This document shows, one piece after another, positions 9,338-29,711 of a stretch of 29,711 bases of DNA. The notes beneath the pieces were generated by a model. That model was given only the letters and a program-made list of their open reading frames with translations. It was not told the origin of the DNA and ran no database searches. Source of the stretch: Heliocybe sulcata (taxonomy: Eukaryota; Basidiomycota; Agaricomycetes; Gloeophyllales; Gloeophyllaceae); the NCBI GenBank assembly GCA_004369045.1, contig ML213552.1:1-29711 (forward strand), in the 5' to 3' direction. Position 1 is the stretch's first letter, and every line of letters begins with the position of its first letter. The translations under genes and the position numbers were made by a program.

Positions 9338-10330
9338 GTCTTGACTACGGCACCCCGCGAGGAGAGACAAAAATGATCAACAGTCGCCCTGGCATCGGAT
9401 GGACGATGCAAATGCAGAGATCACGGCAACGAACAACAGAGCACACGCAGGACCCGGTACCAGCCGGAGGCTGACTGTCAATCGACGACATCCGTCTGGT
9501 ACCGCACACAGTCGTTCAGCCTGTGTCGCCGTCTAGAGCGGGAGTGAGTAACGGATAGTGGATGTATATTCGGAGCTTACCAGGACGAAATATAGTACGC
9601 GACGTTAGCTCTCGGGACTTCGTGCCTTGGATGACGAGCTTTCGTGAAGCTCGAAGTACAGCAATCATGGACCAAAACACCGCAACAGCTCCGGTCCCGT
9701 GTGACTAATCAGCACCTACGGTGGATCTACCATTGGAGAGACAATAAAATGACCAATGGACAGTGGCACGGGAACGAGGAACCATGACCCCATGTCGGTA
9801 CTCGGTACCAGGCAAAGCAATCGCGACTGTCACCATCTTGGATTGTTGTGCATGGCGCCGCGCAAGATCGTCGGGCCTGTGTTGCCGTCTAGAGCGGGAG
9901 AGTCAGTCATCGAGGACGGTGGATGCATGCCAGAGCGTACCAGGGAGTCAAAATCGCAGGATGAGACAACACTGCGTACAGCATCGACTCCGTCTTGACT
10001 GATCAGCACCTGGCGTGGATCTGCTAATGGAGAGACAACAATGATCCATACTCGCCCTGGCGCCGGGTGCACGATGGAAGTGCAGATGGCATGGAGACGA
10101 GGGATGATGACGCCACGTCGGTACGCGGTACCAACCGAAGGAGGTCGATCAGCAGTCGACATGCTCCGTATGGTACCGCGCACAGACGATGGGCCTGTGT
10201 CAGGTTAATATTCTTGAGCGCCGTCTAGAGCGGGAGAGTGAGTGATCCAAAATGGTGGCAGTATGACCGGAGCGCACCAGGGAGTAGAGATACACGGACG
10301 GGATATGGTGCGTGGGATCAGCTCCAAGAA
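9338..10330. repeat. Decayed tandem repeat, three units of about 340 bp
   Basis: Three diverged units lie head to tail. The clearest anchor is gccgtctagagcgggag, found exactly at 9528-9544, 9884-9900 and 10220-10236 (spacings 356 and 336 bp), each time shortly after a c-c-t-g-t-g-t motif. Other landmarks recur in the same order: g-g-a-g-a-g-a-c-a-a with a-t-g-a-(t/c)-c just after it, a g-g-t-a-c-c block, and g-a-g-c-g-(t/c)-a-c-c-a-g-g-g after the anchor in units 2 and 3 (g-a-g-c-t-t-a-c-c-a-g-g in unit 1). Unit 3 has an extra 18 or so bases before the anchor. The units carry no conserved open frame, so this looks like an old non-coding satellite-type array. Confidence 0.75.
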
Positions 10331-11352
10331 CTTCGGGTCTTGGAATCCGAGAGACACAACAAGTCGATTGCGCAAAGGCCATCTTGAAAGCCCGGACCCA
10401 CAGAGTATTCTGTATAAAAGAAGGAGGGGCGTAGCTCAGCGCTCGATGGCGCCATAGGTATACCGAGGTAATCCTCATGGGGTATACGGTGCTATTGCAA
10501 GGGGAACGTCGATTCTCAACGCTCCCTCACTCTAGCACCGCATATCGCTGGAGGGGGACCAAGCTGGTGGGGCCGGGTTCGTCAACGCAAGAACTCGAAC
10601 GTCAGAAGCCCGTGAGGCGCGAAACGAAGGTTATGAGTAGGAGAGCTGCCACGGATGGCGGAACAAAAGGCGGCTGGTTGAGAGATATCCGGTACCAGTG
10701 TCAAAGTATCACTCTCGATGAAGCCTGACATGAGACCGCATACCGCTCGACAAGCATATACGCTCAAGGGGTCGGGACAGGTCTTTGTCTTTTAGCTTTT
10801 GGGTCATGGTCCGGGAGAGCCCAGAGTCAAGCGATGGTGGGACGTTTCAGATGCATGGGTCGCTAATCGATAGAGTTTGGGTAGTGCATGCCATGATCCA
10901 AACTGGCGCGGGCAGTCAAACGGTGGAGTGTAGGGAGCGTAGTGAAAGCCATTGGCAAGCAGCGAGAAACGGGCTGTATTGTCCACCTTTAGCGTAGTAC
11001 AAAGTCAAGCAAGTAGAGGGTTGGACGCACGTTGTCCGCATGTGCAAGGCAGACCACGTCTGCGGTGTAGATGGATGATTTCTGAGAGATCCAAGACGGC
11101 ATCAATATCCAGAAGTCACCAGATACAGAAGACGCTGGGATCTTCACGATATCTCCTTGATCGCCGGGGAAATGAGTACGGAGAGCTGGCAGCACGACTG
11201 GCTTGAAAGGCAAGTCCAGCTTGAAGTCCAGCTTGAATGGGTCCGATCAAGATCTACTGATTTTGGATAGATGAACGGGGGTGGATGCTGTGCAAGACTG
11301 GGCGAGCAAAAGCACGGACGACGGCCGAGCCTGCAGTCTTCTGACAGTGTAT

Positions 11353-11405
11353 AGAGTCTGTTTGTGTAGAGAGTCTGTTTGTGTAGAGAGTCTGCACAAA
11401 CAGAC
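11353..11405. repeat. Short direct repeats ending in a hairpin
   Basis: The 17-mer agagtctgtttgtgtag occurs at 11353-11369 and 11370-11386, and its first eight bases recur at 11387-11394. Directly after this, cacaaacagac (11395-11405) is the exact reverse complement of gtctgtttgtg at 11373-11383, giving an 11-bp stem with an 11-nt loop. It lies about 150 bp upstream of the importin start codon, in the likely promoter region. Confidence 0.8.
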
Positions 11406-11552
11406 GTCTCGTGCAAAGAGCGAAGGGCAGACCAGGTGGCAAGGCGATAAAGAGGCTCGGCTATTGCCGACCAGCTGATTCTCGCGGCCACTTCCACTTT
11501 TTACGCCCATACTCTTTCCTTCCTCTCGTCCTGTACATATTCAAAACTCGCC

Positions 11553-14500
11553 ATGGAGACAGTCGTGCCTCCAGAGGTGACTGCAGAACTGACGCAAATA
11601 CTCTCAAATCTCGTCCTGGGAGACAACCAGATCCGGTCAAAGTGCGCGATATACCTCTGCTCATGGGTTGAACTAAGGCGCAGGATTATTACAGTGCTGA
11701 GAACGCGGTAAACGAACGACTGGCAACGTCGCCTGAGCTGTATATGCTCGCGCTTGCGCAGTTTGCAATGTCTGCCGATAAGGAAGTCGTGCGTACACCG
11801 GCCTCTGCATTCCTACGCATCCGTCTCAATATTCCCTCCCAGATGCGCTCGTTCGCTCTCGTCCTCCTCCGCCGTCTTCTCTTCCGTACCCAGCCCAACA
11901 CCTCCATGACCCTCTACGACCATCTCTCCCCCAACGCCCTGGCCGCCCTCGAGCGCCTGCTTCTCCGAACCCTCTCCTCCGAGCCTTCCCAGTCCGTCCG
12001 CACCAAGGCAGTCGACACCATCTGCGACGTTGCGAACAATTCCATGGGGAGAGGCAGGCCGTGGCACGCTCTGCAGAACCATGCGTTCAGCATGACGCAG
12101 AGTGATGATCCGAATGCGAGGGAGGGCGCGTATAGAGTGCTTGCGGGATGTCCGAATCTGATCCTAGATCTGGAGGTCCCAACCGTAGTAAGTTTATTGC
12201 AGAAGGGGCTCCAGGACTCGCAATCCGTCGAGGTACGTCTCCCCCCACCCTGCACCACACCTTCTCCCATCCCCCCACTTAACGTCCATCCGCGCGACCC
12301 ATTTCCACAGGTCCGTCTCGCATCTCTCACAGCCTCAACCACCTACCTCTCCTCCGTCGAACCTCACCAGCTCGCGCAATCACTCTCCCTCATGTACCCC
12401 ATCCTCGACACCCTTCCCTCCCTCTCCAACACCCACCTCCCGCGCTTCCTCTCCGCCCTCACGCCCCTCGCCACCTCCACCCCCACCCTCTTCGCCCCGC
12501 ACCTCCCCGCGCTCCTCTCCTTCCTCTCCGCGCTCCTCGCGCCCTGCGCCGACCCCGGCCCCACGCCCACCGTCGCGCGCCCGTTCCCCAACTCCCCGGG
12601 GCAGAGCGCGTTCACGTTCCCGCCCTCAGCGCAGGAGAAAGCCGGGAAGGGCAAGGAGCCTGCGGAGGAGGTGGACGAGGAGAGGGAGGAGGTGCGCAAG
12701 GCGACGCTGGAGCTGATGATTAGCTTGAGCGAGGCGCGCCCGGGGATGGTGAAGCGGATGAGCGGGTGGGTCACGGCGGTGGTGCGGGGGTGTCTGGAGG
12801 GCATGGGTGAGATGCCAGAGGACGAGACGCCGGTGTGGTTGGATGCGGATGTACGTCGCCCTCCTTTGTCATGCTGATTGTGCCCGCCCCACTCATTTCT
12901 GCTCATCCGCCTCTCCCCCGCTCCTTTCTCCGCACAGCCCGACGACGACCCCACGGACGACACCTACCCGCACGTGTACGAACAAGCCCTCGACAGAGTC
13001 GCCATCGCTCTAGGGGGAAAGAGCGTGCTCCCACCCGCATTCCAGTACATCCCCGCAATGCTGGCCGGCCATGATTGGAGAATCCGACATGCGGGGCTCA
13101 TGGCGATCGCAGTGGTTGCGGAGGGGACTAGTAAGGCGAGTGTCGATTGCCATCTGCAGATTACGGTCTATCGTCGAGGTGGGATGGCTCGGTGCCCGAG
13201 ATCGAGATGTGGGATAGGCGCTTTCATTCCCAGCGCTAGTCGTGAATGCGAGACTGAACGAGTTCTTTCTCTATAGGTCATGTCGAATGAGCTCGGTAAG
13301 GTAGTCGAACTGGTCGTGCCCATGTTCAAAGACTCGCATCCACGGGTCCGGCACGCTGCCTGTCAGTGTATGTAAGTACCCCCTTCCTCCTCCTCCTCCT
13401 CCATCTCACTCATACATGCGATTTGCAGAGGGCAGTTGTGCACGGACATGGAAGTACGTCTGCTTTTTATGGACGCTGGAGACGGACGGCACTGATGGTG
13501 CGGGTGTGTAGGAGATCATACAAGAGAAGTATCACGAAGAGATTTTCGCAGCATTGATACCAACGTTGGATGCTCCTGAACCGAGGTACGTACGTCCCTA
13601 TCCCTCCCTTCCGCGCATCGCTCACCCCGCCCCTTTCTTGTGCGGTACATTCACTCCCTCTGGACCCACAGAGTCCACGCGCACGCCGCCGCCGCCCTCG
13701 TCAACTTCTGCGAAGGCGTCGCGCGCGACACGCTCATCCCCTACCTGGACCCCATCGTCGAGCGTCTCCTCCGCCTCCTGAACCCGAGCGGGGAGAGCGG
13801 GCGCGTCGTCAAGCGCTACGTGCAGGAGCAGGCGATCACGACGCTCGCGATGGTCGCGGACGCGAGCGAGGCCACCTTTGCCAAGGTGCGTCTGGGCCAT
13901 ATCAATATCGACGCGAATGGGTGTGTTGATGCGATGTATAGCATTATTCGTCGATCATGCCGCTGCTGCTTAATATACTGCAGAATGCGGCTGGGGGGGA
14001 GTATAACAAGCTGAGGTCCAAGGCGATGGAGTGTGCGGGTTTGATTGGTGCGCGATGTGTTGTGGAGGCGTGCAGCCCGCGTTGGCTGACCACTTTCCTG
14101 GCTCGCTTGTGCAGCTATCGCAGTTGGGCGCGACGTATTCCGCCCAGATTCGACGCCTTTTATCGAGCAGCTGATGCGGATACAAAGTAGGCGTGCTCTC
14201 CCTCTTCCGCTCAGAGTGCGCGTTGACTGTGTCTTCGTAGATAGCCCCCCAGACCCGAGCGACACCATGCTGCCACACTACCTCATCGCGACGTGGGCGA
14301 AAGTATGTCAAGCTCTCGGCCCCGAGTTCGAGCCGTACCTACCGGTGGTCATGCCCGCGCTGCTGCAAGCTGCGAGTGCGAAGGCGGACGTCTCGATATA
14401 CGACGGTACGTATCTGCTCGCTCGCGGCGCTCGAATGTGTTGAATTCGGCGTGTAGATGAGGACGAAGAGCGGGAGGAGAAGGACGGCTGGGAGACGATC

Positions 14501-15212
14501 TCGATGGACGGTCAGCAAGTTGGGATAAGGACGTCGGCGATTGAGGAAAAGTGCCAGGCATTCGAGACGCTGGTGATTTATTGCTCGACGTTGCAGGCAA
14601 AGTTCGCGCCGTATCTGCCGCAGAGCTTGGAGCTCGTTCTTCCATCGCTGCGGTTCTACTTCCACGACGGCGTCCGCGAGGCGTCTGCACTGCAAGTCCC
14701 ACACCTTGTCCGTCGCGACCAATTGGATTAACTGCCTCTTTTGCAGGTTGATCCCGATGCTGCTGGCCTGCGGCAAGAACAGCGGGACGCTCACGCACCA
14801 AATGGTCAACGCATCGTTCACGCAGCTCGTGAACTGCATCGGCTCCGAGAACGACGCCTCCTTCCTCGCCTCGCTCTACCGCTCCTTCACCGACTCTCTC
14901 CGCGTGATCGGCGGCCCGCCTGCGCTCCCGCAAGAATTGCAGGCGCACGCGATCGACGCGACGAAGCGGCAATTGCACGTCCTCGCCGACCGGCGCAAGG
15001 GCCGCGCGGCGAAGCCGTCGTCCGAGGTTGAAGACGAGCGGGAGGACATTGCGCTGTTGGAGGAGATGGAGGATTTCGCGCTGGAGGATATGGAGAAGAT
15101 GTTGAAGGCGTTTGATGCGAACCATCCGTTGGTTGTTGCTATTTCGAGTATCAAGGATTTGGGACTGCATCTGGAGGATTGGAGCGAGGGGGAGGGGGAT
15201 GAGGAAGGGTGA
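11553..15212 (+). CDS. PSE1: Importin beta-3 (Kap121/Pse1/IPO5-like), short C-terminus
   Basis: Exons: 11553-11641, 11695-11788, 11843-12232, 12311-12850, 12938-13135, 13277-13371, 13429-13453, 13512-13585, 13672-13885, 13942-14047, 14115-14186, 14241-14405, 14457-14691 and 14747-15212; 920 residues, every join in frame. It is a HEAT-repeat karyopherin: L-A-L-A-Q-F-A and [14 protein letters not shown] in the first repeats, then I-G-Q-L-C-T-D and the acidic loop before [11 protein letters not shown] at about 690-705, all typical of Kap121/IPO5. These carriers bind import cargo in the cytosol, cross nuclear pores and release cargo on Ran-GTP. Known relatives run to about 1090 residues. Here the chain ends soon after a second acidic stretch, in [10 protein letters not shown], so the last HEAT repeats are missing. 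Introns 13136-13276 and 14692-14746 use GC donors. Exon 7 is only 25 nt. Confidence 0.9.
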
Positions 15213-17441
15213 TGCGGACGGGGATTGTATGCGATTTGTGCTTTTGGCTTTGGATGTAAAGGATGTAACATACACATAATATCGGTGTAGTATATATGTT
15301 GGAAGAGTGGAGGCAGGAACGCGCCTCCAATATAGTGCTACGAGTCAGGAGATTGTGTAGTCTCCGCTTCTGCTCGCAGTCGAGACTCCAGCATCCTCAT
15401 GCTTGACAATCGCTGAGATGTGGCTCGGCGTCACGATCATGTGGCTCGTGACTCACGTGCATCGTGACAGTCAGAGTTTGCAGTGGCAGGACCGCTCGAC
15501 CTGTGCTTGCGCCTGGTTGGTCCAATGACTCAAGTGGTCCGTCACTTTATTGCTTTCCTATGACGCGTGAGCCCCGAACACATCGACACGAAATCGATTC
15601 AAAACATGGAATAGAGTGTAGGCAATGAAAAAGACGGTCAGCAAAGGAACGGCCGTTACAAGGTCCATTCACCTCTTCCGTTACTTCTTCTGGGAGCCAT
15701 CAATCTTCATCTCCAAAGTATGTCTCGTCAGAAAGTCTCGGCTTACACTCCCAAAAGCCCGAGCGTCGGCATCGTCCTCCTCCCAGCTGATATTGCGAGC
15801 GACACGTGACGAGAACCAGCGAGAAAGTTCTAACGAGAGATGGATAGGCTGAAGGAATGGACTGCAAGCCAGCACGACAATGACGCGGCATTCAAGAAGG
15901 ATCGGGAGGTCTTTCAGTCGAGAGACATGGGATGGGTGGTACCGCGTTTTATAGTTGAGGGTACGTCCGAAGAAGATGACGCCAAGAAAGGGAGGCAGGA
16001 CTCTAGGATGAGAGAATAGACGGCGGAGAGCAACGAACTTTGTCCGCTTTTGCCTCTATCGAGGGGACGCTACGCACTCGTAACACACTTCGGTAATCGC
16101 ACTAGTGGTTTGGATCATCATCGCACATGGAGAACGGATGGAGCCGGTGATACGCGATCTCTCGCAAATGCAGATTATTTGAGCGAGATCTTGGTCAGGG
16201 CCGGGTGGGTACGTGCCCTCTCCAATAATGTTCGTCAATTCAACGCATACATTTCCGTCGTTCATGTTGACGGAGATATAGCCGGGCATCTCATAGCCGT
16301 GTCCCGGGTGGCTGCGGGGACCAGGAACTAGGAGTTATATACGTGAAATGATCTTCGCATCCGTAAGGGAAATAGAGTACTTACGCTCGGCTTACTGGAG
16401 GGGTCAGCGGGATGACCGCTGGCCAAAGTTCCCGGAACGCATAAGCTGAGGAAGGAATAAATCGATCCACCAGGTCACTGTGAACCTCGTCGAGTACGGC
16501 AGCGAAAAGGTACGCAGAAGCATCGCGGATTCCGTAGTTACCATGAATGAAACACTTCAAAATCCCTTTCTGGTTCACATGCCCAAGAAAAACCCTCCGG
16601 TCCGTCACTCGCAGATGCGTCGAAACAAGAAAGCCGCTTCAGAGTGGAAACATCTACTCGGCCGTCGATATGCTCTGATGCGACTTGCACGCCTCCACCA
16701 CCGCGACTGAGTCTGAACAATGACATACTAATACCAAAGTAGATAGTGTTGTGGAGCGGTAGCAAAGCCCATGAGACGCAGTGGTAGAGACAGCAGGGCA
16801 TTCGCGAGCGAGTGGCGGCTCAATGTCGCCACGTGGCTTGTGCCCGTCAGGGACACCGCCGAATCCTACGTTCCCGCTCACGACCACTCGGCGCCAGGGT
16901 CAGACCATTGAATACTCTCGGCGTATGGCACCTTGGGAACTGATTCAGGTGGGAACTGATTCAGGATACGATTGAGTCCTGACGGTACTGGGAGCATAGC
17001 TCGCAAGTTTTGCGTCTGGCCCGTCACGGGTAGCGACCGTCCAGCCTGCATCCCCACATCCGCTGCCACTGCCAGTATCTATGCCTGACCCTGTCTGGAC
17101 AAAAGACTTCTCTGTGTTGTCGAGAGATTGCCCTGTTTTTGGTCGGACACCAGCCCTATCGCCAGTCATAGTTGCTGAGAAGCGACTTCTCCGTTCAACC
17201 GCCTGCACTAGGTACCCATTTACCCGGAAGAGCTCATTGGAACGATGATCCAGATCATTACGAACAGTCTGTCTGGTGTTTGTTCCCAAAACCTGGCTCA
17301 CTGCGTCTGGAACCCGACCAAGTTGTTGGGAGCTGGCCTTCTATGTAACTATAAGATACTGGGCAACCGTCCGCAGATAGCGGTGATTTTCTCCTGCCTC
17401 CACCTCTCATTTCCCTTTTAATAGACGACTAAGGACCTCCC
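15213..17441. other. 2.2-kb gap with unassigned open frames
   Basis: After the importin 3' UTR no gene can be assigned. Open stretches worth recording: a minus-strand frame without stops from 16055 to 15681 (125 codons, first ATG at 15875); a plus-strand frame 15840-16019 with ordinary composition that meets a GTACGT donor-like site near 15960; and minus-strand frames at 16608-16381 and 16289-16056. The 16.6-kb frame contains L-R-V-T-D-R-R-V-F-L-G-H, faintly like an Sm/LSM motif, but no full domain can be built. There is a 15-bp tandem duplication at 16935-16965. A block at 15374-15515 is shared with the region near 19 kb and is listed separately. These may be gene remnants. Confidence 0.45.
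15374..15515 (+). repeat. Flank block A, related to 18973-19113
   Basis: This block and 18973-19113 share tcgcagtcgagactc, then ggctc-g/a-gcgtcac with c-a-t-g-t-g, then repeated t-c-g-t-g-a-c, then a diverged c-t-g-(t)-g-c-t-t-g-c-g...c-c-t-g motif, in the same order and strand. This copy contains an E-box CACGTG (about 15454). It lies about 160 bp after the importin stop and nearly 2 kb before the intact unknown-family gene. Confidence 0.6.
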
Positions 17442-18768
17442 ATGGGCATCGGTGCGTATATTTTGATTACTCCTTAGCAGCAGGACTGACCGGTCCGTGA
17501 CAAATCTAGGCCGCAGAACATCGGATGGAGTACGCCGGACATGTCATCAGGTGATCAACCAAGTCCTGCGTCCAGAGTATGCGAAAAAGCTCTGGGTCGG
17601 TTATCATCCATCTTCTATCTAGCATCGTCGCTCAATTATGCTGTAGGCGGGCGTTTTCTCGCTTGCAGAACAGCACCTTGATATGCATCAATCTGTGAAA
17701 GAACAGCCGAAAGAATGGGATAGATTCATTGGTGCGGTCAGTTCGGCCTCCTCTCTTGCGTATATAGCTCTTTCATTTACGGTATTTGTGACCAGGCAAC
17801 CAAGAAATTTCCAATTTTCAGGGCATTCGAAGATGTCTGGCCGCTTCGTGAATATACAACCCAGCGTCTGAGAAAGTACAGGTCTCGTATGATGAAGGCG
17901 ACAGAGCAAGGAAACATCACAGAGAGGGACCTGCCGAAGCAATACCAGGATGCCCCGCCTCCGGGAGAGGAAATGGCGAGTGGCCAGGAGAGATATGGAA
18001 TCTTTGATACTGACAATGAATCTGTACCGAAGGCTGCTGACCTTCACCGTGCGACCGAGCCGCCATCAAATATGACTACTGGCACAGAGATAGGTAACAC
18101 ATTTAAGGTGGGTTATCCAGTGCATCTTTACTATGCACTGTCTCACGACCGGGCGCGGACCAAGACGTTATTCAACGGGAATGTCAGACTCCAGCCTTAC
18201 GGAGCGTGCGAGGTAGGTCAAATCAAGACGAGGATGATTAGACTCGCTTACCTCTGCGTCTAGATGTACGCGGAAATGCTCATCGAGCACGGGCACCAAG
18301 CTCCTCATTCGCCTGTTTTCTCCGCGTCCTGGCGTGCATCGAGTCACGAATTGCCCCCGAGGGCAGCTACAGCCGATCCGTCCGCGCTCCCTACCTCGGA
18401 CATTGTTTCGCCGACCTCTGAGCTTACCAAAGCGCTTGCAATATCGCCTGCCCCATTGGATCCCAGACAGCATGTGGGAGCCTTCCTGGCCTCCCTCTGC
18501 CCACCCCTTCCGCACATGCTACCAATATTCACTCGCGCGGGTATCTGCAACGAACGGTGAGTTCAATCTACTCCATCACCGTTTTCCTATCTCAGCGGGT
18601 CATCGCATCTAATTCACGGTCGTCAGATGCCTCCAAGCCATGGCTGCCTGGTCTCCAGCGCGGATCGACGACTTTCTTCGCAAAATGGTCGACAGGCGTG
18701 ACCTCAGTGCTTTGGAAGCGGAGGCTATTGCGTGCGGCCTCCGGGAGATTTCACAACGCGCAGTATAG
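17442..18768 (+). CDS. Uncharacterised duplicated family, intact member (339 aa)
   Basis: I do not recognise this family. Exons: 17442-17451 (10 nt), 17510-17599, 17669-17736, 17796-18212, 18264-18556 and 18627-18768; 1020 nt, all joins in frame, with an upstream in-frame stop (taa) supporting the ATG. The N-terminus is basic (R-R-T-S-D-G-V-R-R). Residues 15-90 look helical and carry K-K-L-W-V (29-33), K-E-W-D-R-F and F-P-I-F-R-A-F-E-D-V-W-P-L (61-73). Residues 90-260 are polar and Pro/Ser/Ala-rich, probably disordered. Residues 266-335 form a compact helical module: A-F-L-A-S-L, M-L-P-I-F-T-R-A-G-I, C-L-Q-A-M-A, I-D-D-F-L-R-K-M-V and a final I-A-C-G-L. Its spacing recalls a SAM-like five-helix bundle; that is inference. 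There is no signal peptide or membrane segment, so it is likely cytosolic or nuclear. A dead copy follows 580 bp downstream and a third lies at the right edge. Confidence 0.75.
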
Positions 18769-18972
18769 GATCTGCAAGGCTCCTATATCAGACTGTTCAT
18801 GTAGGGAAATGCATTGAACGACTTCTGATCTTCTGATCTTGCATCTGCCGAAACGTGTAACCTGGCACTCTGACCGACCCTGGTGTTCCACGGAGAAGAT
18901 TTGGACAGACCAGACACGCGAATCCATTACAATACTTCATGTCCCATCTCATAGGTAATAAATCCACATCTT

Positions 18973-19113
18973 TCGCAGTCGAGACTCGAGCCTTCTGTGC
19001 AATACGGGCACTCGGGCTCAGCGTCACAGTCATGTGATCGTGATCGTGACTAATCTGAAGTGAACTTCGCGAGGACGACAGCTCGAAATAGTCCTGCTTG
19101 CGGCCTGTGTAGT
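18973..19113 (+). repeat. Flank block B, related to 15374-15515
   Basis: This is the second copy of the block described at 15374-15515, with the same ordered motifs. It sits 234-374 bp upstream of the start of the dead unknown-family copy and about 200 bp after the stop of the intact one. This arrangement suggests it travelled with the gene as upstream sequence during duplication. The rest of 18769-19346 holds nothing else I can name; there is a small cttctgat direct repeat near 18823-18838. Confidence 0.6.
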
Positions 19114-19346
19114 ATCTTAATCGCAAGCAAAACGTTCTTTCTGTCCCATACCAATACATACGCAATATCGACTGAGCATGGTCATACGTCTGGACGGATA
19201 TATGATGTCGCGCATTGTACGCCTTGATTACGTTTCCAGGCTCGACCCAGAACACTGTCAACACAACTACCGCAACCATAAAGGTGAAGCGCTAGCCTTG
19301 ACCCGTTCTCATCCCTCCGAACGCTGACGACCTTCACCTGTGCAGT

Positions 19347-20475
19347 ATGCCTCGCGTCAAGGCCACATCAAAGTCCGCTATGGAGATAGGTGAGCGTTCT
19401 CTCCATCATGTGGCTATAGTCCCATACAATTAATACCGCCGTCATGGAGAAGTACGCGCGACGTCCCCCAGCACACGCCAGCACAAGTCACGGCGTTACA
19501 AGTACAGCAGAGCTATCCGCGAGATCCTGCCCGGCGCAGAGGTGACGAAGCTCTGGGTCCGCCTCTTCTCGCTTCCCGGGCTCTATCGCGCACCTGACGT
19601 TACGGGTTATGCGGGAAGCGGTGCGATCCCTCGCGCGCTCGTACCTTGACATCGAGCGTCCGCTGCGAGATTAACTCCCAGGAAAATGGGCCCGTCGCTC
19701 GGCCGTCGAGTCTGACGTTCGAGTTCCCGATCTTCGCGCGCGTATCCACTTCGGGGGTACGTGACCGCTGGATGTCGAATCAGAGGCACCACGCCCTGTG
19801 TCGCAAGGAGTCTGGCGCGGGGAGTGAGAAGGGCCAGAAAAGTGTCTCCCCAAAGATAGGATAAGGAGAATGGGTATGCCAATACGGAGACTGCGAGCGG
19901 GCGGCTGCCTCTCGAGCAAGAGTCTGGCGACGGGAATATGCACGTGAGTCCCAGCTCGAGGTGGAAGTGCCATGTTGTCTGAGATCCCCGCTGTAGGCAA
20001 AGTCTTGCCACAAACCCAAGATACGCACGTACCAGATGCCCGCGACTATCACTGACGCTGCGCCCACGCGCCCACCGTTCGGGACGGAGGCACCATTTTC
20101 AAGCTCGCAGGCGTCCACATCGCCGCGCCTCCCCTCGTCTGACACTGCATCCTCTCAAGCCTCGACCTCCCCCTCTGCCTCATCTGACTACCTCTACGCA
20201 TTCCTCTCGTCTCTGTCTCCGCTCCAATGTCTCACCTGCAACCCCTCTTTGCCCGCCTCGGACTCTCAGACGCAGAGCAAGTGCCATCCACTCCATCTTA
20301 CCCCAAGTACTATTGACGAGCATTCAGGTCTCAGATGCCTACGAGCGCTGGCTGAGCGACCCGGTCACGCCTGGACGCGTTTCTCCAGAGGCTGGTGCAG
20401 AAACAGGAGCTGAATATGTTCCAGGTGGACACGATCATTTGCGGCTTGAAGCAACCGGCGGGAAGCACTGAGTAA
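19347..20475 (+). pseudogene. Dead paralogue of the unknown family
   Basis: It follows the layout of the 17442 gene: a short first exon ending A-T-A-G just before a GTGAGC donor (19390), an exon with basic residues and T-K-L-W-V, a Y-L-D-I...K-W-A-R stretch aligned to H-L-D-M...K-E-W-D-R, an exon starting at an ATG (20038) with a Pro/Ser-rich linker, and the C-terminal module. Breaks: TAA at 19672-19674 where the intact copy has Gln; TGA at 19762-19764 where it has the Trp of W-P-L; a frame change near 20226 between S-S-L-S-P and S-H-L-Q-P-L-F-A-R-L-G; another near 20360 before L-D-A-F-L-Q-R-L-V-Q. The intron of the module (20277-20334) would use a GC donor. The ATG matching the intact copy may be the one at 19380. 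No functional product is expected unless the splicing differs greatly. Confidence 0.75.
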
Positions 20476-20801: not shown

Positions 20802-20842
20802 GCTTTCATGATGAGTCGAAGCTCTGGATGGACAGTGTGCTC
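20802..20842 (-). repeat. Dispersed repeat fragment, copy 1 (minus)
   Basis: Read on the minus strand it begins gagcacactgtccatc and continues with gagcttcgactcatcatg then aaagc. The same string recurs, with small changes, at 24237-24272 and 28979-29009 on the plus strand. In this copy it sits in an open frame encoding E-H-T-V-H-P-E-L-R-L-I-M-K-A, and similarity to the 28979 copy continues for 50 or so bases further. The parent sequence is unknown. Confidence 0.7.
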
Positions 20843-22154: not shown

Positions 22155-23793
22155 ATGCGCTCTCTCGCCCTCCTCTCCTTCGTCTCCACCGCCCTCGCAG
22201 CCACCTACAGTCTCAGCGACAACCACGTCGGTCCCGACTTCCTCACCTCCTTCACACACGAGGCCATCCCAGACCCTACCAGCGGCAGAGTGTGCGTGCC
22301 CTCCCTCCCTTCCTCCTCCTCCGCCTGACCCCCGCGCAGGAACTACGTCGACCAGGCCACCGCCACCGCCCAGAACCTCACCTTCACCTCCCCAGACTCC
22401 CTCGTCCTCCGCGCCGACGCCACCACCACCCTCACCCCCACCGGTCCCGGCAGAAACTCGGTCCGCATCAAGAGCGTCAAGACCTACACCACCCATGTCT
22501 CTGTGTGAGTGCCTAGATCCCCACTCTTGCGTTGACACTGACCTCTTTGTTAGATATGACATCCGCCATATGCCCCAAGGCCTCAGTACGTGGCCCGCTG
22601 CGTGGGAGGTCCAGGAGGATGGCTGGCCTGCAGGCGGCGAGGTGAGCGTCTTCGTTCCTGCCACTTTTTGACTGCATGCGTTTCCTTCCCCATCCATTCT
22701 CCTCCCACCGTCTCTTTCCGCGTACGCGTTCCCACCCCGTCCTCCCACCTGCCCTACTACCCTCCATCCACGCACACCCCACCCCATCCACTCACTCCTC
22801 ACCTCCACTCAACCGCACTCCTTTTCACTCCCCAATTCCTCCCTCTCGCATTATACTCACCCTTCCCAGGTCGACATCCTCGAAGGCGCCAACGACGTCG
22901 CCCCCAACCAAAGCACACTGCACACCGCCGCAGGCTGCACAATGCCCGACGGGCGCGCCGAGACCGGGTGCGCTCCTCCCCTTCCCTTTCCCCTTCTCCC
23001 CTCCCTCCTCCTCCGTCCCCTCCTCCCCTCCTCCTTCCGCGAGCACAGCTAACTAGTAACCCCCCCAGCACCCCCGTCAGCGAAGACTGCGGCGACTCCG
23101 CCGGGCCAAACCTCGGCTGCGGCGTCCACGCGCCCACCACAAACTCCTACGGCACCGCCTTCAACGCCGCCGGCGGTGGCTGGTGCGTCCCTCCCCCCCC
23201 TCCTTGCGTGGTGTTAATAAAGTGAATTGGGGGGACTTTAGGTACGCGATGGAGCGCACGCCCGACTTTGTCAAAGTCTGGTTCTGGTCAAGAGGGGACG
23301 CGAGCGTGCCTGCGGACGTGAGCGGGAACACGGGGTCTGTCGACACGGATAACTGGGTTTGTCTTTCCCTCCCTTCCCTTCCCTTCCCTTCCCTTTCCCC
23401 CTCCCCTGCCCTTCCCCCTTGCCTCGAGTACTCACACAAACCTACGTACGCAGGGCACCTCCACCGCCTTCTTCCCGACCTCCTCCACCTGCGCCCTCTC
23501 CACAAAAGTCGGCGCGCCGCACAACATCATCATCAACCTCACCTTCTGCGGTGCCTGGGCAGGCACGACCTTCGCCAGCGCGGGCGGCGTCGGGGCTTGT
23601 AACAGTGCGTCTCTCTCTCCCTCTCCCTCTCCCCTTCCCTTTCCCCTCTCCCTCCCCTTCCCCTCTCCCTCCCCTTCCCCTCCCCTCCCTCCTCGCGTGA
23701 GCTGACACTGTGTTTTTAGCCTACGTGGAGCAAAACCCCACAGCGTTCGTAGACGCCTTTTGGGATATCGCGGCTGTAAGGGTGTACGCGTGA
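22155..23793 (+). CDS. Secreted GH16 endo-1,3(4)-beta-glucanase
   Basis: Exons: 22155-22291, 22340-22504, 22554-22641, 22870-22967, 23069-23182, 23242-23356, 23454-23604 and 23720-23793; 313 residues, all joins in frame. A signal peptide (about 1-15, ending A-L-A) is followed by the beta-jelly-roll domain of basidiomycete GH16 enzymes of the Phanerochaete Lam16A type: G-R-V-N-Y-V-D, P-G-R-N-S-V-R-I, R-H-M-P-Q-G...W-P-A-A-W, then the catalytic G-E-V-D-I-L-E-G with nucleophile Glu130, Asp132 and acid/base Glu135, and the C-terminal F-W-D-I-A-A-V-R-V-Y-A. It should cleave beta-1,3 or mixed beta-1,3/1,4 glucans outside the cell, in nutrition or wall remodelling. Four introns are long for this window (97-228 bp) because of pyrimidine-rich tracts. 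A truncated relative lies 630 bp downstream. Confidence 0.93.
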
Positions 23794-24419
23794 GCGCCGG
23801 AGAGAAGGAGAGAGGGTATTTATTGAAAAGGGGGTGCTGTGCGCCTTGTTGGTTGGTATTTGTATTGGGTATTTATTGATTTTTTGGGATGAGGTTAAGA
23901 GAAGGGAAGGGAAGGGTTGTTCGATATTGGGAGTGTAGTGTGCCGTCCGAGGACTCGCTTTGGGTACTTGTAGAATGAGACTGAAGGCGCGTTTCCCGGA
24001 GCTCGAGCCTCCGTGCTTGGTGGAAGCTCCAGAAGGCGATGTTGTGAAAGCAAGCAAGCAAGCGCCTAGTCGTACTGTTACACGGATTTGAAAAGGGAGT
24101 ACTGGGTCGACGTTCTCTTTTATCTTTTCCCTCGCATATCAGCTGTCGGGGTGCCAGTACGAGAACAGGAGCAAGCAGTTGACGGTTCGGGAGGTCTCAC
24201 TAGTACTGCCTGGACCAGACATCCGTTCTCCCGGCGGAGCACACCGTCCATCCCGAGCTTCGACTCATCATAATCTCAACCAAACATATATATAGTAGGC
24301 ACCAGCGCCTTCGATATGTGCGTATGCATTGATCTCCCTTGGTACGCAGGAAGAGAAATGGCTTGATACTTACATCAAGGTACTGAACAGGCGCAAGCAC
24401 GAATCGAGCTCTCGCCCTC
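23794..24419. other. Gap between the two GH16 copies
   Basis: The first part is the GH16 3' UTR and includes a purine tract g-g-g-a-a-g-g-g-a-a-g-g-g near 23904-23918. The second part carries the repeat fragment at 24237-24272. No gene is seen, and the missing 5' half of the second GH16 copy is not here in any frame I can detect. Confidence 0.55.
24237..24272 (+). repeat. Dispersed repeat fragment, copy 2 (plus)
   Basis: It begins gagcacaccgtccatcccga and continues gcttcgactcatcat, nearly identical to the minus-strand copy at 20802-20842. It breaks off after c-a-t-c-a-t-a, where the other two copies read on as a-t-g-a-a-a-g-c. It lies about 150 bp before the point where GH16 homology begins. 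Confidence 0.7.
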
Positions 24420-24896
24420 GTGAAGTTCTCGATCTGGTTTTGGGCAAGGAACGACGCGTCGGTTCCTTTCGACGTAAGCTCCGGACCGGCTCAGATTGAC
24501 ACAAGCACCTGGGTAAGGACCTTTGCAACTTCTCAGCATCGTTATCCACTATTAAGTGCTACCATAGGGAGAGCCGACAGCTTACTTCCCCAATACGGAC
24601 TGCAACTTGGCTTCTCACTTTGGCCAGAACAATATCATATTCGATCTAACGCTCTGTAAGCCTGCGTTGTCGATCCCGTTTCGACAGCGATTGTTCTAAT
24701 TCCGAGAGTAGGTGGAGACTGGGCTGGGGCTGTCTACAACTCGGATGGATGCTCTGGGGACTGCGTCAGTGAGTGGCGACTGTATGGACCCCTTGGTTGA
24801 CCCGGAACTAACAGCTGTTAAGCTTACGTCAATGAGAACCCATCTGCATTTTCCAATGCCTATTGGGACATCGGATTCGTGCGGGTGTACGAATGA
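24420..24896 (+). pseudogene. GH16 3' half, active site missing
   Basis: Exon-like blocks 24420-24512, 24568-24655, 24712-24768 and 24823-24896 join in frame and align with the second half of GH16: V-K-F-S-I-W-F-W-A-R-N-D-A-S-V-P, then G-E-P-T-A-Y-F-P-N-T-D-C, F-D-L-T-L-C-G-D-W-A-G, and A-F-S-N-A-Y-W-D-I-G-F-V-R-V-Y-E to a stop. Splice sites are good and no internal stop is seen. Everything before V-K-F-S, including signal peptide and E-x-D-x-x-E, is absent. It resembles other basidiomycete GH16 proteins as much as its neighbour (it has S-G-D-C and A-Y-F-P-N-T, which the neighbour lacks), so it may be a separate paralogue cut at its 5' end. Confidence 0.8.
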
Positions 24897-25061
24897 TCGA
24901 CGCGGTAGCAGATAGATAGCTCAAGAATTGCACAAACGGCTCGCAGTCCTCCGTTCTATTCGTATGAATCATCACGAACCAAATCATCCCTGCGCAATCC
25001 AATGACATACGTTCTCGTACTACCTTACGGTAGTCGTGCTAACTGTGCCGAGACATTTTAA

Positions 25062-27819
25062 CTACGTGGGCGAACGTCCAAGGCTGGTCTTGGCCATCTT
25101 GCACTTCCGCCGTTCCGGATCTTCAGGCTCGCCCGGTTGGCTTTGACTAGCACTCCGCTTGCTAGCAGACGATTGCGAGCGGGATGCAGTGGACCTGGAC
25201 ACCTCAAGAGCTTCAGCTTTTAGCTGGTCCTGAAGTTTATCCCCGCTGAGCCATCCGGTCTCCGTATTCAAGTGGTCATACAGCAGCTCTATCATCGGGG
25301 TGTGAGTTTCGATGGGTGTGACATCTTCGAGGTCCGCGAATGTCTTCTCCTCATCCTCTTCGGAGTCCACATCAATCTCATGTGCGACGGAAGTCTTTGG
25401 TGTACTGGTAAGGAGACTCGCGATAGAGTCACGCTCCTGTGCGAATCCTAGAAGATACGACGGGGTAGCAGTCTTTGTAGAGACAGAGGCGACCGCCTCC
25501 TCGCGCACAGGAGCACTCTCCGGCTCAAGAAGATGGGGATAAATCTTCACATAGTACCTCTTGAGCCACTGCAATGACCTGCGTATGATCCTCCGCACAT
25601 GCAGACTGTCAAACCGCAGAACCTTGGCCCCCGTGCTCAAGTAACCAGCATGAAAAGCACCCAGTTTCTCGCTTCCTCCACTTGCCTCTCCATTCGGCGC
25701 ATAGTCGTACGAATCGAAGTACTGCCTCATGACCAACTTAACTGAGTCGCAGTTATGTCTGAGGTAACGGAGACTTTCATAGATCAACACGTGGACAAAA
25801 GATTCCAGGTCGTCTGCGACTTGGTGAACTTTCTTTGGATTACGTAGCAGCGCTGCAGACATAAACTGCCATGTACCCTACTAACTGTGTTAGAAATGTC
25901 ACAACGCATATTTCGCGGAGAAAATACGCACTGTGCGGTTCGGCTGCCTGGCCCCCTCTCTATTGGTCCTCACGTCCTTCGACAGATCCCAATCGTTCAG
26001 AATGGCCGTAGTGACAATCTCTGGCGAGCCGTCCGCTTGTAGCCGCCCCGTGGGGTGAGAGTAGATTAGGATGTTGCCGCGGCTGACGTCGCGATGAAGG
26101 ATTCCGGCTCGTTCATAAGCCATGTAATGTGCTGAAGATCGATGAATATGGTAGCGGACACAATTGCACGAGCGGACTCACCGACAACGGCATACATGAT
26201 GGTCGCAATCAGTTGTCTAGACTCCTCGAAATCGTCGAGAGGCTGGCCAATTTCTGAGACGACCATTCGGTAGTGAATATGCGGCTTCATGGTATTCATC
26301 TCATCTGCACTGTCGCCTCTCGCATGTTTGTCCGTCAACGTTGACTGGGGCCCATCTAAGGCCGCTGGAGAGAGAGGAGCGTTCGAGCCCCGAAGTGCTG
26401 TCTGGACTGCATTTCCTTCTGAACTGGACTGGGTACCTAGCCATGGACCAGTCATACCAGCGCCACTGGCGGCCGGAACGTCGTCAGGAACAGGGTGCGT
26501 GGACTCTCCGGAGTTCAATCCACAACGGCTGCAGACGTCGCCGTCACATACGAGCGTAGGGACATACTCGACCTGAGCTACCCGTAGAGCACGCAGGACA
26601 TCACCCTCCTTCTGAATACCGGGTAACGAAACGCGCCAGCAGTCCTTCAAATAGAACAAGCGGCGCGTTTCCGGATCCATGGCAATATACCCCCGCGTCC
26701 CTCGTCCAGTGACACCGAGTGCCCGGAAATGAGGCTTCGCGACAAGGAAGTATCGAACCAGTTGCTTCTCTGCAGGGCGACTCTCGCCCAAAGGCAGGCT
26801 TTCAGGACTTTGAGGAGCGGTCTGTGGGGCAAGAACGTGCCGTACACAGTTGCAGTCGCTGACCTTTAGCTTCCACCAGGGCCAATCCTCGCGGAGAGAA
26901 TCCTGCCAGTACTGGAGTTGCTTAGGAGTTAAGGCGTTGGGGTCTGGGCCTGCCTTCATCAGATCATACAACGCTGACGGTTTGTCAATCTTCTCAGCTG
27001 TCGGGTCGATACCTTGCTGCTCATCGGACAGCTTGCAGAACCGCCAGAGAAACTGAACAAGCAACGTTGGGTCTTCAACATAATCGACGAGATCAGAGAC
27101 AAAGGCGCCAGCCTTATCCCAACGGAAGAAACGGGCGTAACGCCCCAGCACTTGAAGTGAGAAGATGTGGGTGCGCTGCTGGTGGGCGAGCATCGCCTCC
27201 GAATAACCAATCGCCTGTCCTCGAGTCTGCGTTGGTTTCTCCCCTAGGCGCTCGAACGCTTCCGTGGGGTCGTCACAGAATCCATCCACTTGACGGGCGA
27301 CTTTCATTCCCTTGAACTCAACAAAGACACGCATGTTGCTCCATCGTGTGGCGCCATCCTGAGGCGCCTGAAGCTCGGGATACAGGCCCACATCTGGAAC
27401 TTGCCTCCCTCTTCCGCGGTAGTCCTGCGGATCCCCCTTATGCGGCGTGGCGACGAATTTATAGCCTGAGCAGAAGTTACTTTCATGTACGACTTGAATC
27501 TAGGAAAGTATAGTCAGCAGCTAACCCGGATAGTAATACCCGACTGCCTAACCCAAGGTGTATACATGCCACGTTCTGTCTGGATAGTTTCCATGGGTCT
27601 GAAAATGTCGGGAGAGAATGTCGGAGTGTTGCCCCATTCAGCCTAGACAGGCATGAATCTATCCAGCCATTCTATTCCCGCCAGCCTAATGAACTCCCCA
27701 TTCATATCAAGTGCGTGCTGTTTCTTCCTTTCCTCGGCGGCCGGCTCTTCGTGGGCGTGAGGACGAGAGCCCGTTGTAGACCTTTTGTAAGGCGAACTGG
27801 AAACCTGAGACGAAGGCAT
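25062..27819 (-). CDS. FunK1 fungal-type protein kinase, in-frame stop near N-terminus
   Basis: Minus-strand exons: 27819-27643 (ends at TAG), then 27594-27553, 27499-26182, 26131-25932 and 25877-25062. Starting at the ATG at 27594 the chain is 791 residues, all joins in frame. It carries the FunK1 pattern: V-P-D-V-G-L-Y-P and V-F-V-E-F-K early, F-Y-L-K-D-C-W-R as the ATP-binding lysine strand, H-R-D-V-S-R-G-N-I-L catalytic loop (466-475), D-W-D in place of D-F-G (500-502, normal for FunK1), then G-T-W-Q-F-M-S and D-D-L-E-S-F-V-H-V. The basic C-terminus may be nuclear. The upstream exon ends I-E-W-L-D-R-F-M-P-V then TAG (27645-27643), and the same frame continues into F-R-P-M-E-T. That upstream part resembles the usual FunK1 N-terminus, so the stop probably shortens the protein. 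Cellular roles of FunK1 kinases are poorly known. Confidence 0.82.
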
Positions 27820-29393
27820 TGTAGCAGATGAGGGTGACGAACCTCGATAAGGAGAGCGCCCAGGTATACCGCGCACTGTGTGGTCTAATGTGGCACTGTT
27901 TGTTTGACTTGTGTTCTATCACGTTAGCACGAGGTTGATGCCCTGTTTCTCACCTCGGGTTTCGGGAAGCAATCACGGCGCGGAAGGATCTTGACTCAAA
28001 CGATTATAGGAATGGTTCCAGGAATAGTCGTCTTGCAATGCAGCGTGCACGCAGTTCCAGCAAAGATGCTGTTGCAGCAGTCACGCAGCAGTTCGAGTAA
28101 CGGCCCACGATCACGTGATTTTGCAAGAGGCGCGCGTCCGCGACGCGCCACGATGGAAGACTGTGGCGTCCGTCGATATGACTCTATATTGACTACAATA
28201 TACGTTTACGGGGTATCCGTTCCTTGTGCCTTGCGATACGTACGCCGCAACAGGCCTGCGGCAGCAGTATCGAGCAAGATTGTATATGGATCAACTCATG
28301 AAACACGCGACAGATTGTCTGTAGGACCTGGGAGCTATCATTACGATGCACGCGGCTGTATGCACTTTGCGTGTCGAGGGTCAGTAACCCATGAGTTGGA
28401 GCAGAGAATACCGATGTTCATAGCCGACTGGGATGTGGCTTTGATGCGAGGCAAGTACTGCACATGACGGCCAGTTCTCGGATCGATATGCTGTGGAGTT
28501 TGAGGTTCCCGGGGCGGAAAAGACATACAATACAAATAGTTTTCGAGCTTAGAAGCTAGTTTGGTGTGCAACAGCGGTAAGAGAGCTGCACAAAGCTGGA
28601 CGAACGCACGACCGGAGCGCAATCGATTGTTATCCAGCGCGCGTTGTTATGCGACTACAAAACTACTTGTTACTCGATCTCGATCTCTATCTTCGACATA
28701 CTCAGACATGCTCAGCTCATCTCCGATCCCCAAGCGTCTATGATCCCGACGGCAAAAAAGATCTAATTTTTGCGAGCGTAAATCTCACGCCAAATCAACC
28801 AGCCTGTCTACCGACATTCTGCCCCAATGGCGGTACGGAAGGTTGGTCACGAGCCTAATCCTTACCCATCGGATGTGGTTCAATGCTGTCTTATTTTTTG
28901 TTAGCTCAAACTGCATATAGCCAGTAGTGCTGGATCTCTTTACAGAGAAGCCGATGATCGTTGTAGAACGAGGTCACGGAGCACCCGAGCTTCGACTGAT
29001 CATGAAAGCAGAGCTTGGAACGAGACTTCAAGTTGGCACCAGCAACGATCGCCGCCTTTACTGCGCATGAGGATCAAGGCGTACAGGTGGGTGTCCCAAG
29101 GACGATGGTCACAGCGGCCTAGCGACGTCTCCCCGCTGAATCTGGCGAGTACTTCATGCCGAAGGAGGGAAGTCTCCGGAAGAGTGTGCTGGTCTGCTTG
29201 CGTATGAGTAGCGCAGTGGCCTATGTACGCCCAATATCAGATCTTGTGGTAATGTCCACCGTAGTCAGTGCATTCAGGCGTAATCTGCCAGTTCTACGTT
29301 GATCAAGAGCACGGCGGAGTAGGGGTGCGGGGATTTGTATACCAAGAGCAGTTATTAAGGATGCACAAACGAGCGCAGCAGGATACCCAACCG
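27820..29393. other. 1.6-kb gap right of the FunK1 gene
   Basis: It should contain the FunK1 promoter on the minus strand. I see no gene with recognisable features. Around 28106-28150 there is a CACGTGA and a CG-rich stretch of alternating c-g-c-g motifs. The dispersed repeat fragment at 28979-29009 lies near the right side. Confidence 0.5.
28979..29009 (+). repeat. Dispersed repeat fragment, copy 3 (plus)
   Basis: It reads gagcacccgagcttcgact then gatcatgaaagc, matching copies at 20802-20842 and 24237-24272 apart from an internal deletion of six or so bases. Similarity to the first copy continues to about 29070 (c-g-c-c-t-t-t-a-c-t-g versus g-g-c-c-t-t-t-a-c-t-g). One frame reads P-E-L-R-L-I-M-K-A-E-L-G-T-R, then meets a stop. 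Confidence 0.65.
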
Positions 29394-29711
29394 TTAAGCA
29401 TACTCGGCCCTGTCCGCCATGTCCTTCAATCCCCACTGAATCGCGTCCACCTGGAATACACTGAACTCGCCCTTCTGCACCAGCTTTTGAAAAAATGCGT
29501 CCACACGCGACTCGGGCCGCGCAGCGAGCGCTCGGAGGCACCTGAAACAAAGTTCCCTGTCAATCGCAGGATAGAGTAAGCGGAAATGGAGGACGTTTAC
29601 TCTGCATTCGAGATTCCGAGGCGATTGAAGACGGGCCACAGGTGAGGCTGGGGCGGAGAGAGAGACGAGAGGAAGGCTAGGACGGAGTCGGAGGCGGAGG
29701 GGTCAGAGGGA
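29394..29711 (-). CDS. Unknown-family member, C-terminal part, runs off the window
   Basis: On the minus strand the frame enters from the window edge (29711), has an intron at 29600-29542 (GTAAAC...TTTCAG) and ends at TAA 29396-29394. It encodes a Ser/Asp-rich linker and the same C-terminal helical module as the genes at 17442 and 19347: A-F-L-S-S-L-S-P-P, F-N-R-L-G-I-S-N-A-E, C-L-R-A-L-A-A-R-P, V-D-A-F-F-Q-K-L-V-Q-K, F-Q-V-D-A-I-Q-W-G-L-K. It is closer to the dead copy than to the intact one. The intron falls in the same place and phase (2) as in the others. No break is seen in the visible part. The 5' half lies outside the window, so its integrity is unknown. Confidence 0.75.

Follow-up and report, generated by a model that had tools for sequence, protein, structure and literature searches.

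A two-domain gene family of Heliocybe sulcata and a C-terminal module held in common with helix-turn-helix-like proteins

Introduction

A short contig of the basidiomycete Heliocybe sulcata raises the question of what is encoded by a gene that is found there intact, dead and cut short within 12 kb. An earlier note, made from the letters of this DNA, described a protein with a helical N-terminal domain (N-domain), a disordered linker and a SAM-like helical C-terminal module (C-module), and knew of no named family with this combination. We have followed the gene through the rest of the genome. The window is the entire contig C50, with 29,711 bases, from an assembly of 31.6 Mb in 51 contigs; the coordinates of the features discussed are collected in Table 1.

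Results

Three members of the family lie in the window

The intact gene, the dead copy and the partial copy that the earlier note had placed in the window were all borne out by a scan with hidden Markov models (HMMs) of the paralogs together with DNA alignment. The C-domain HMM was built from five loci and the N-domain HMM from four, all on other contigs; neither contains rows from C50 or C42, though their rows had been co-aligned with C50 and C42 rows. The scan covered the 1,039 open stretches of at least 15 residues in the six frames of the window, and 20 codon-block shuffles served as the control. With the C-domain HMM, the top seven stretches (rows) of the window all fall within the three copies, with scores of 44.4 and 43.3 bits for the cut-off copy, 33.2 and 31.0 bits for the intact gene and 24.7, 17.1 and 15.6 bits for the dead copy; the highest shuffle score was 10.0 bits. 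With the N-domain HMM, the intact gene accounts for the top two stretches, at 35.4 and 15.2 bits, the second of them slightly above the shuffle maximum of 12.6 bits. The dead copy scored 8.2 bits with this HMM, behind an unrelated stretch (8.4 bits) and under the control. The N-terminal part of the dead copy is evident from its DNA instead, which is 72% identical to that of the C42 gene over 349 columns (E 1.6e-22). A strict, guessed DNA pattern for the W-P-L motif gave no match.

Paralogs revise the model of the intact gene

The six-exon model of 339 residues given in the earlier note stands in that its exons are present and can be joined with GT..AG introns, but the exact model is probably wrong at intron 2 and perhaps at intron 4. 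In C42, C15a and C15b, intron 2 starts directly after TGG and exon 3 opens with KAVQALASEYLD or EAVRDLADE.L; the window gene matches this pattern, with an intron-2 donor GTCGGT and an exon 3 that opens with AGVFSLAEQHLD. Revising intron 2 in this way raised the score of the protein against an HMM of C42, C15a and C15b from 132.1 to 150.0 bits, a gain of about 18 bits. Based on the donor position in the paralogs and on this gain, the V of the K-L-W-V motif, formerly read as part of the N-domain, is most likely the start of intron 2. The span of intron 4, taken as one, is 152–157 nt in the paralogs and 156 nt (18108–18263) in the window gene, and thus the window gene probably has an intron of this length rather than the 51-nt intron of the earlier model; the HMM is non-decisive here, as the two versions differ by about 1 bit (150.0 vs 148.9). 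In C42, two 51-nt introns flanking a 54-nt exon are also possible at this span. The revised protein has 310 residues.

Intron positions are held in common by many of the members. The introns after KLW and before the FPIF exon, both of phase 0, are found in six of the six non-decayed loci (splice sites judged by eye). The phase-2 intron in the C-module, which had been reported for all three copies in the window, is present in the intact gene, in the C42 gene and the cut-off copy, in C15a and C15b, and in the dead copy, where the donor is GC (by eye); it is not a property of the whole family, as the C-module is read through without an intron in C7b and C3.

Table 1. Positions of the intact gene, its copies and its paralogs
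Feature	Position	Strand	Description
Exon 1, intact gene	17442..17451	+	MGI plus 1 nt, followed by a phase-1 intron; corresponds to where exon 1 ends (MDI/MNI) in C42 and C15a
Exon 2	17510..17595	+	End revised to TGG
Exon 3	17647..17736	+	Start revised; AGVFSLAEQHLD..; aligns with KAVQALASEYLD / EAVRDLADELLD of C42, C15a
Exon 4	17796..18107	+	Last part of the N-domain (FPIF..FEDVWPLR) and linker; end moved from 18212 to 18107 (less certain)
Exon 5	18264..18556	+	Linker and first half of C-module
Exon 6	18627..18768	+	Second half of C-module and stop; preceded by the phase-2 intron
Decayed copy (pseudogene) resembling the C42 gene	19347..20478	+	71% DNA identity; splice sites lost; frameshifting gaps; in-frame stop
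Segment common to C42:88808-94093	24427..29711		99.6% identity; holds the FunK1-type kinase match and the third copy
Third copy, cut by contig end	29394..29711	-	Part of exon 5, and exon 6; found by the C-domain HMM; no difference from C42
C42 gene	C42:93776-95091	-	N-domain and C-module
C15a	C15:291859-293168	-	N-domain and C-module
C15b	C15:299917-301205	+	N-domain and C-module
C7b	C7:166578-167643	-	N- and C-exons close together on one strand
C3 member	C3:1226191-1227284	-	N- and C-exons close together on one strand
Further C-module locus	C7:201649-201879	+	C-module present

One copy has decayed and one is cut by the contig end

Aligned over its whole length with the C42 gene, the decayed copy is identical in 789 of 1108 columns; exons reach about 75% identity and introns 63%, values that are approximate as the exon labels are a few bases off. 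The acceptor of intron 2 and the donor region of exon 3 are gone, and exon 3 contains an in-frame stop (both by eye). Fourteen gaps in this alignment touch exons, 12 in the decayed copy and 2 in C42, and 8 of the 12 are not a multiple of three, although one of these 8 is the alignment end. Judged by these lesions, the copy is a pseudogene.

The partial copy is likewise present, but its truncation is due solely to the end of the contig: its 318 bases are identical to part of the C42 gene, which is complete, with six exons and 312 residues. The larger segment that this copy shares with C42 differs at 22 positions, of which 11 are in 24440–24604, 8 in 25490–25558 and three elsewhere; the differences are thus clustered in two patches, and none is within the gene fragment. 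The third member thus exists, although it may turn out to be the C42 gene itself, present here as an allele, a duplication or an assembly overlap. We discarded the idea that the window is simply a haplotig, since only the segment from 24427 to 29711 matches C42 (60001–103193) end to end; leaving aside the dead copy, which matches the C42 gene at 72%, the remainder of C50 has no match in these 43 kb of C42. A genome search with positions 10000–20000 of the window led to a single place, the C42 gene at 66% similarity (one of two candidates was scored). The common segment also contains a FunK1-type kinase match (25062–27391, minus strand) with four stop codons, perhaps intronic, in its C-terminal match row; this kinase family accounts for 114 matched stretches in a genome search.

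The two domains occur together at seven or more loci

When the proteins of the window gene and of C42, and portions of those of C3 and C7, were run against the genome, the N-domain and the C-module were found together, in the same order, at seven loci, including the decayed one; this count merges the cut-off copy with the C42 gene and is a lower bound. The two-domain gene family is therefore genuine, small and multigene, and its members are scattered over the genome. Three full-length two-domain proteins are available, from the window gene (310 residues), C42 (312) and C15a (305), and C42 and C15a have six exons each with the same five intron positions. Six exons are also recognisable in C15b, but by eye the frame is not kept across its junction of exons 1 and 2 as it is in the other members. 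In C7b and C3, the order of the two domains is taken from neighbouring exons, with the linker partly modelled. One further locus on C7 has a C-module, and by eye no N-domain is seen in the three plus-strand frames of the 3.2 kb upstream.

The architecture common to these proteins is an N-domain of about 100 residues (KLW..., [FL]PIF..F...[WY]PLR), a linker in which Ser, Thr and Pro make up 33–51% of the residues in the three full-length proteins, and a C-module of about 75 residues. The members are well diverged: in BLASTP, the window protein is 28–32% identical to those of C42 and C15a over 310–321 columns in three of the four directions, while the fourth direction returned only the C-module (45% over 74 columns), and the proteins of C42 and C15a are 48% identical. 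Coding constraint is evident among three members. Based on most of exons 2–6 (Nei-Gojobori), dN/dS is 0.438 for C15a and C15b (278 codons), 0.389 for C15a and C42 (270 codons) and 0.343 for C15b and C42 (269 codons), which points to these three as coding genes under selection. Synonymous sites are saturated in the three pairs that include the window gene, so these yield no ratio, and the constraint applies to C15a, C15b and C42.

These ratios bear on the rapid turnover that the earlier note had suggested. Rapid turnover is supported in part, by the decayed copy and by the duplicate pairs, but three members have values of 0.34–0.44. The same evidence speaks to the idea that the family is dispensable and decays fast, has no role in the cell and is maintained by duplication in unstable regions. 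One copy is clearly dead, the junction of exons 1 and 2 of C15b is out of the usual frame, and one copy lies inside a 5.3-kb segment common to two small contigs, all of which would fit this idea; yet C15b itself is among the members with low ratios, and C42, C15a and the window gene keep full-length frames at only about 28–48% identity. We consider a family of this dispensable kind quite unlikely.

C15a and C15b are arranged head to head (C15:291859-301205), about 7 kb apart, with a dS of 0.305 between them, and by eye the translations downstream of the two genes are alike.

The C-module is not recognised as a SAM domain

The earlier note had found no name for the family, and it is without a name in the libraries that we searched, as matches in Pfam, NCBIfam and the PDB give none. 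Whether complete proteins or single domains are compared with Pfam and NCBIfam, no match exceeds a cut-off, and no enzyme family is among the matches. Searches of the PDB with profiles A1 (6 matches) and A2 (5 matches) returned weak matches to unrelated proteins. A scan of prokaryote genomes with the joined domains of C42 gave 82 pattern matches, none of which was confirmed as a relative, and the literature matches listed contain nothing on a family that joins this N-domain to this C-module. Thus, of the proposal that the protein is a modular adaptor or binding protein rather than an enzyme, the modularity and the want of any matched enzyme family in Pfam and NCBIfam agree with our results.

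The description of the C-module as SAM-like fared less well. If the module were a divergent member of the SAM superfamily, it might act as SAM domains do, by head-to-tail or pairwise association. Consistent with this, AlphaFold2 placed five helices within the roughly 75 residues of the C3 C-module in both of two models, made from 3 and 7 aligned rows, although at modest confidence (mean pLDDT 74.6 and 78.6; pTM 0.60 and 0.66), and by eye the opening V..FL..L...F...GI...L..L resembles that of a true SAM domain encoded on C3. This true SAM domain, the positive control taken from the genome under study, reaches 60.6 bits in Pfam, but none of the seven C-modules of alignment A1 matches a Pfam SAM family at E values up to 10. 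A search of the genome with SAM_2 found four places, none of them family members. Comparison by hhalign of the C-module profiles with two true SAM domains of the genome gave probabilities of 4.3% and 0.2%, and of 0.45% and 4.6%. Moreover, Foldseek searches of the PDB with these modest-confidence models returned no SAM domain in the 31 matches of the first model or among the best 50 of the 85 matches of the second. We therefore regard a divergent SAM domain as an unlikely identity for the module.

No known association fold is supported by structure either, as nothing reached E ≤0.001 among the Foldseek matches listed for the PDB and the viral models. The best PDB match listed was chain d of the chloroplast ATP synthase (E 0.94, TM 0.51; E 2.1 with the first model) and the best viral match, among the best 50 of 227, had an E value of 0.73; both were set aside.

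A similar module ends four helix-turn-helix-like proteins

Indirect backing for the adaptor or binding idea comes from a second protein class that seems to bear the module. A search with C42 reached C26:298742-299056 (E 0.118), which is the C-terminus of a gene with a helix-turn-helix (HTH)-like N-terminal part. HTH relatives of the C26 protein are encoded on C14 (two genes, C14a and C14b) and on C19, and a similar C-terminal module was noticed in them, first by eye. In all four HTH-like proteins the module immediately precedes the stop codon. Searches within this class agree: the C14b query finds the modules of C14a (E 0.0014) and C26 (E 0.79), and the C14a query finds that of C14b (E 0.019).

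To compare the two classes, the four HTH modules were aligned as a profile with the profile of six family modules. This gave a probability of 94.3% and a score of 43.4 over 77 columns, while 50 column shuffles reached at most 1.5% and a score of 15.7. The two row sets in this test are disjoint; a comparison of A1 with A4 (99.7%) was set aside as circular, because these alignments have three rows in common. Row by row, the scores spread widely. An HMM of the HTH modules gave the six family rows 20.7 down to 0.2 bits, with 6.5 bits for C3 and 0.2 for C7b, and the family HMM gave the four HTH rows 19.0 down to 1.5 bits, with 3.7 bits for C19 and 1.5 for C14b. In view of this spread, we judge the link, as far as sequence comparison carries it, to be firm for the two sets and weak for C7b, C3, C14b and C19 taken singly. 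That a module is common to the family and to HTH-like proteins is new relative to the earlier note.

One result is at odds with reading this similarity as a sign of association. The joint profile A4 had 10 matches in the PDB, headed by a designed helical repeat protein at E 9.9e-6, with a methyltransferase at E 0.011. We read both as a general helix pattern, and the designed repeat at the top suggests that part of the profile signal may be of this sort as well.

The assignment of the N-terminal parts to the HTH class is itself based on matches below the curated Pfam cut-offs: 15.4 bits for C26 (cut-offs 21.2 and 24.6), 16.0 bits for C14b (24.6) and, for C14a, 13.8 bits to Sigma70_r4_2 only (25.7), while C19 has no Pfam HTH match. 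The likeness of C26 and C14b to HTH_23 and CENP-B_N proteins thus consists of subthreshold matches, and the two-domain family differs from such proteins in that it has no match of this kind.

Subthreshold matches to CENP-B_N, HTH_23 and transposase HTH domains in this class could also mark both the two-domain family and the HTH-like class as remnants of a DNA transposon, with the HTH of a CENP-B/Tc1-type transposase, with the C-module as its dimerisation part, and with copies spread by transposition. Near the decayed copy, a pair of inverted 35-bp arms, 94% complementary, starts at 20808 and 24237, as might be expected from this origin; but the arms flank no family gene, and no transposase domain was found in the two full family proteins scanned, those of the window gene and C42. 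Introns held in common, dN/dS below 0.5, and seven diverged loci with no burst are also contrary to spread by transposition, and we find a transposon origin very unlikely.

Discussion

A module found at the C-terminus of two unlike classes of proteins, one of them likely to bind DNA, would most simply be read as an association domain, for docking or oligomerisation. According to this proposal, the HTH-like proteins would bind DNA with their N-terminal part and associate through the C-module, and the two-domain family would join the same assemblies through its own C-module, with its N-domain in place of the HTH, as a co-regulator or as a competitor. That the C-module is an association or docking module common to the likely DNA-binding proteins and to the family, with the family in one of these two roles, seems to us a good possibility that falls somewhat short of probable. 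The sequences themselves show the family, its gene structure, the order of its two domains, constraint in three members and the common module, whereas we infer the association function, a nuclear role and the choice of partners. The three full-length proteins have no long hydrophobic stretch (mean hydropathy over 19 residues at most 1.41), and their most basic 30-residue stretch, which lies in or after the N-domain, has a charge of +11 in C42, +8 in C15a and +6 in the window gene, where it is weak. The S/T/P-rich linker and the basic stretch are compatible with a role in the nucleus.

A broader reading is that these 75 or so residues form a fungal association domain that is as yet undescribed and has no relation to SAM. 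It would join a class of HTH-like DNA-binding proteins and an HTH-less family in a regulatory assembly restricted to one lineage, with members that multiply and decay fast. We offer this as a speculation, and on balance a doubtful one. Should the association prove real, families at present labelled hypothetical would be annotated by a new domain model. Unnamed gene families are plentiful in fungal genomes, and a module present on both classes would provide a handle on association and on regulatory rewiring.

Known systems offer partial parallels. According to PMC4844672, the transcription factor LEAFY combines a SAM oligomerisation domain with a DNA-binding domain, and oligomerisation gives it access to low-affinity sites and to closed chromatin. 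The likeness lies in a DNA-binding protein that carries a helical domain for association, which is what we propose for the proteins with an HTH and the C-module. The differences are that the SAM domain of LEAFY is N-terminal, whereas the module here is C-terminal and without detectable SAM similarity, that the family has no recognised HTH, and that association is, in our case, a proposal. Similarly, fungal SAM domains such as SAM_Ste50p (PMC9815663) are small helical protein-protein modules in fungal proteins; the C-module differs from them in having neither a Pfam SAM match nor a profile match to the two SAM domains of the genome.

Other features of the window

The two inverted arms (20808–20842 and 24237–24271) lie 3.4 kb apart, and a related third 17-mer is found at 28987–29003, downstream of the cut-off copy; the window contains four matches with at most three mismatches, compared to 0.13 expected. 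The arms and the 17-mer may represent the end of a transposon or a 3' flank that was duplicated. Long pyrimidine-rich repeats of the TCCCC type occupy 22973–23716 on the plus strand, and diverged direct repeats of 46–48 nt, at a spacing of 318–356 nt, are found from 9497 to 10265. Two open frames on the plus strand appear to be ordinary neighbours, one with a RhoGAP domain (340–1917) and one with importin-like HEAT repeats (11744–12877).
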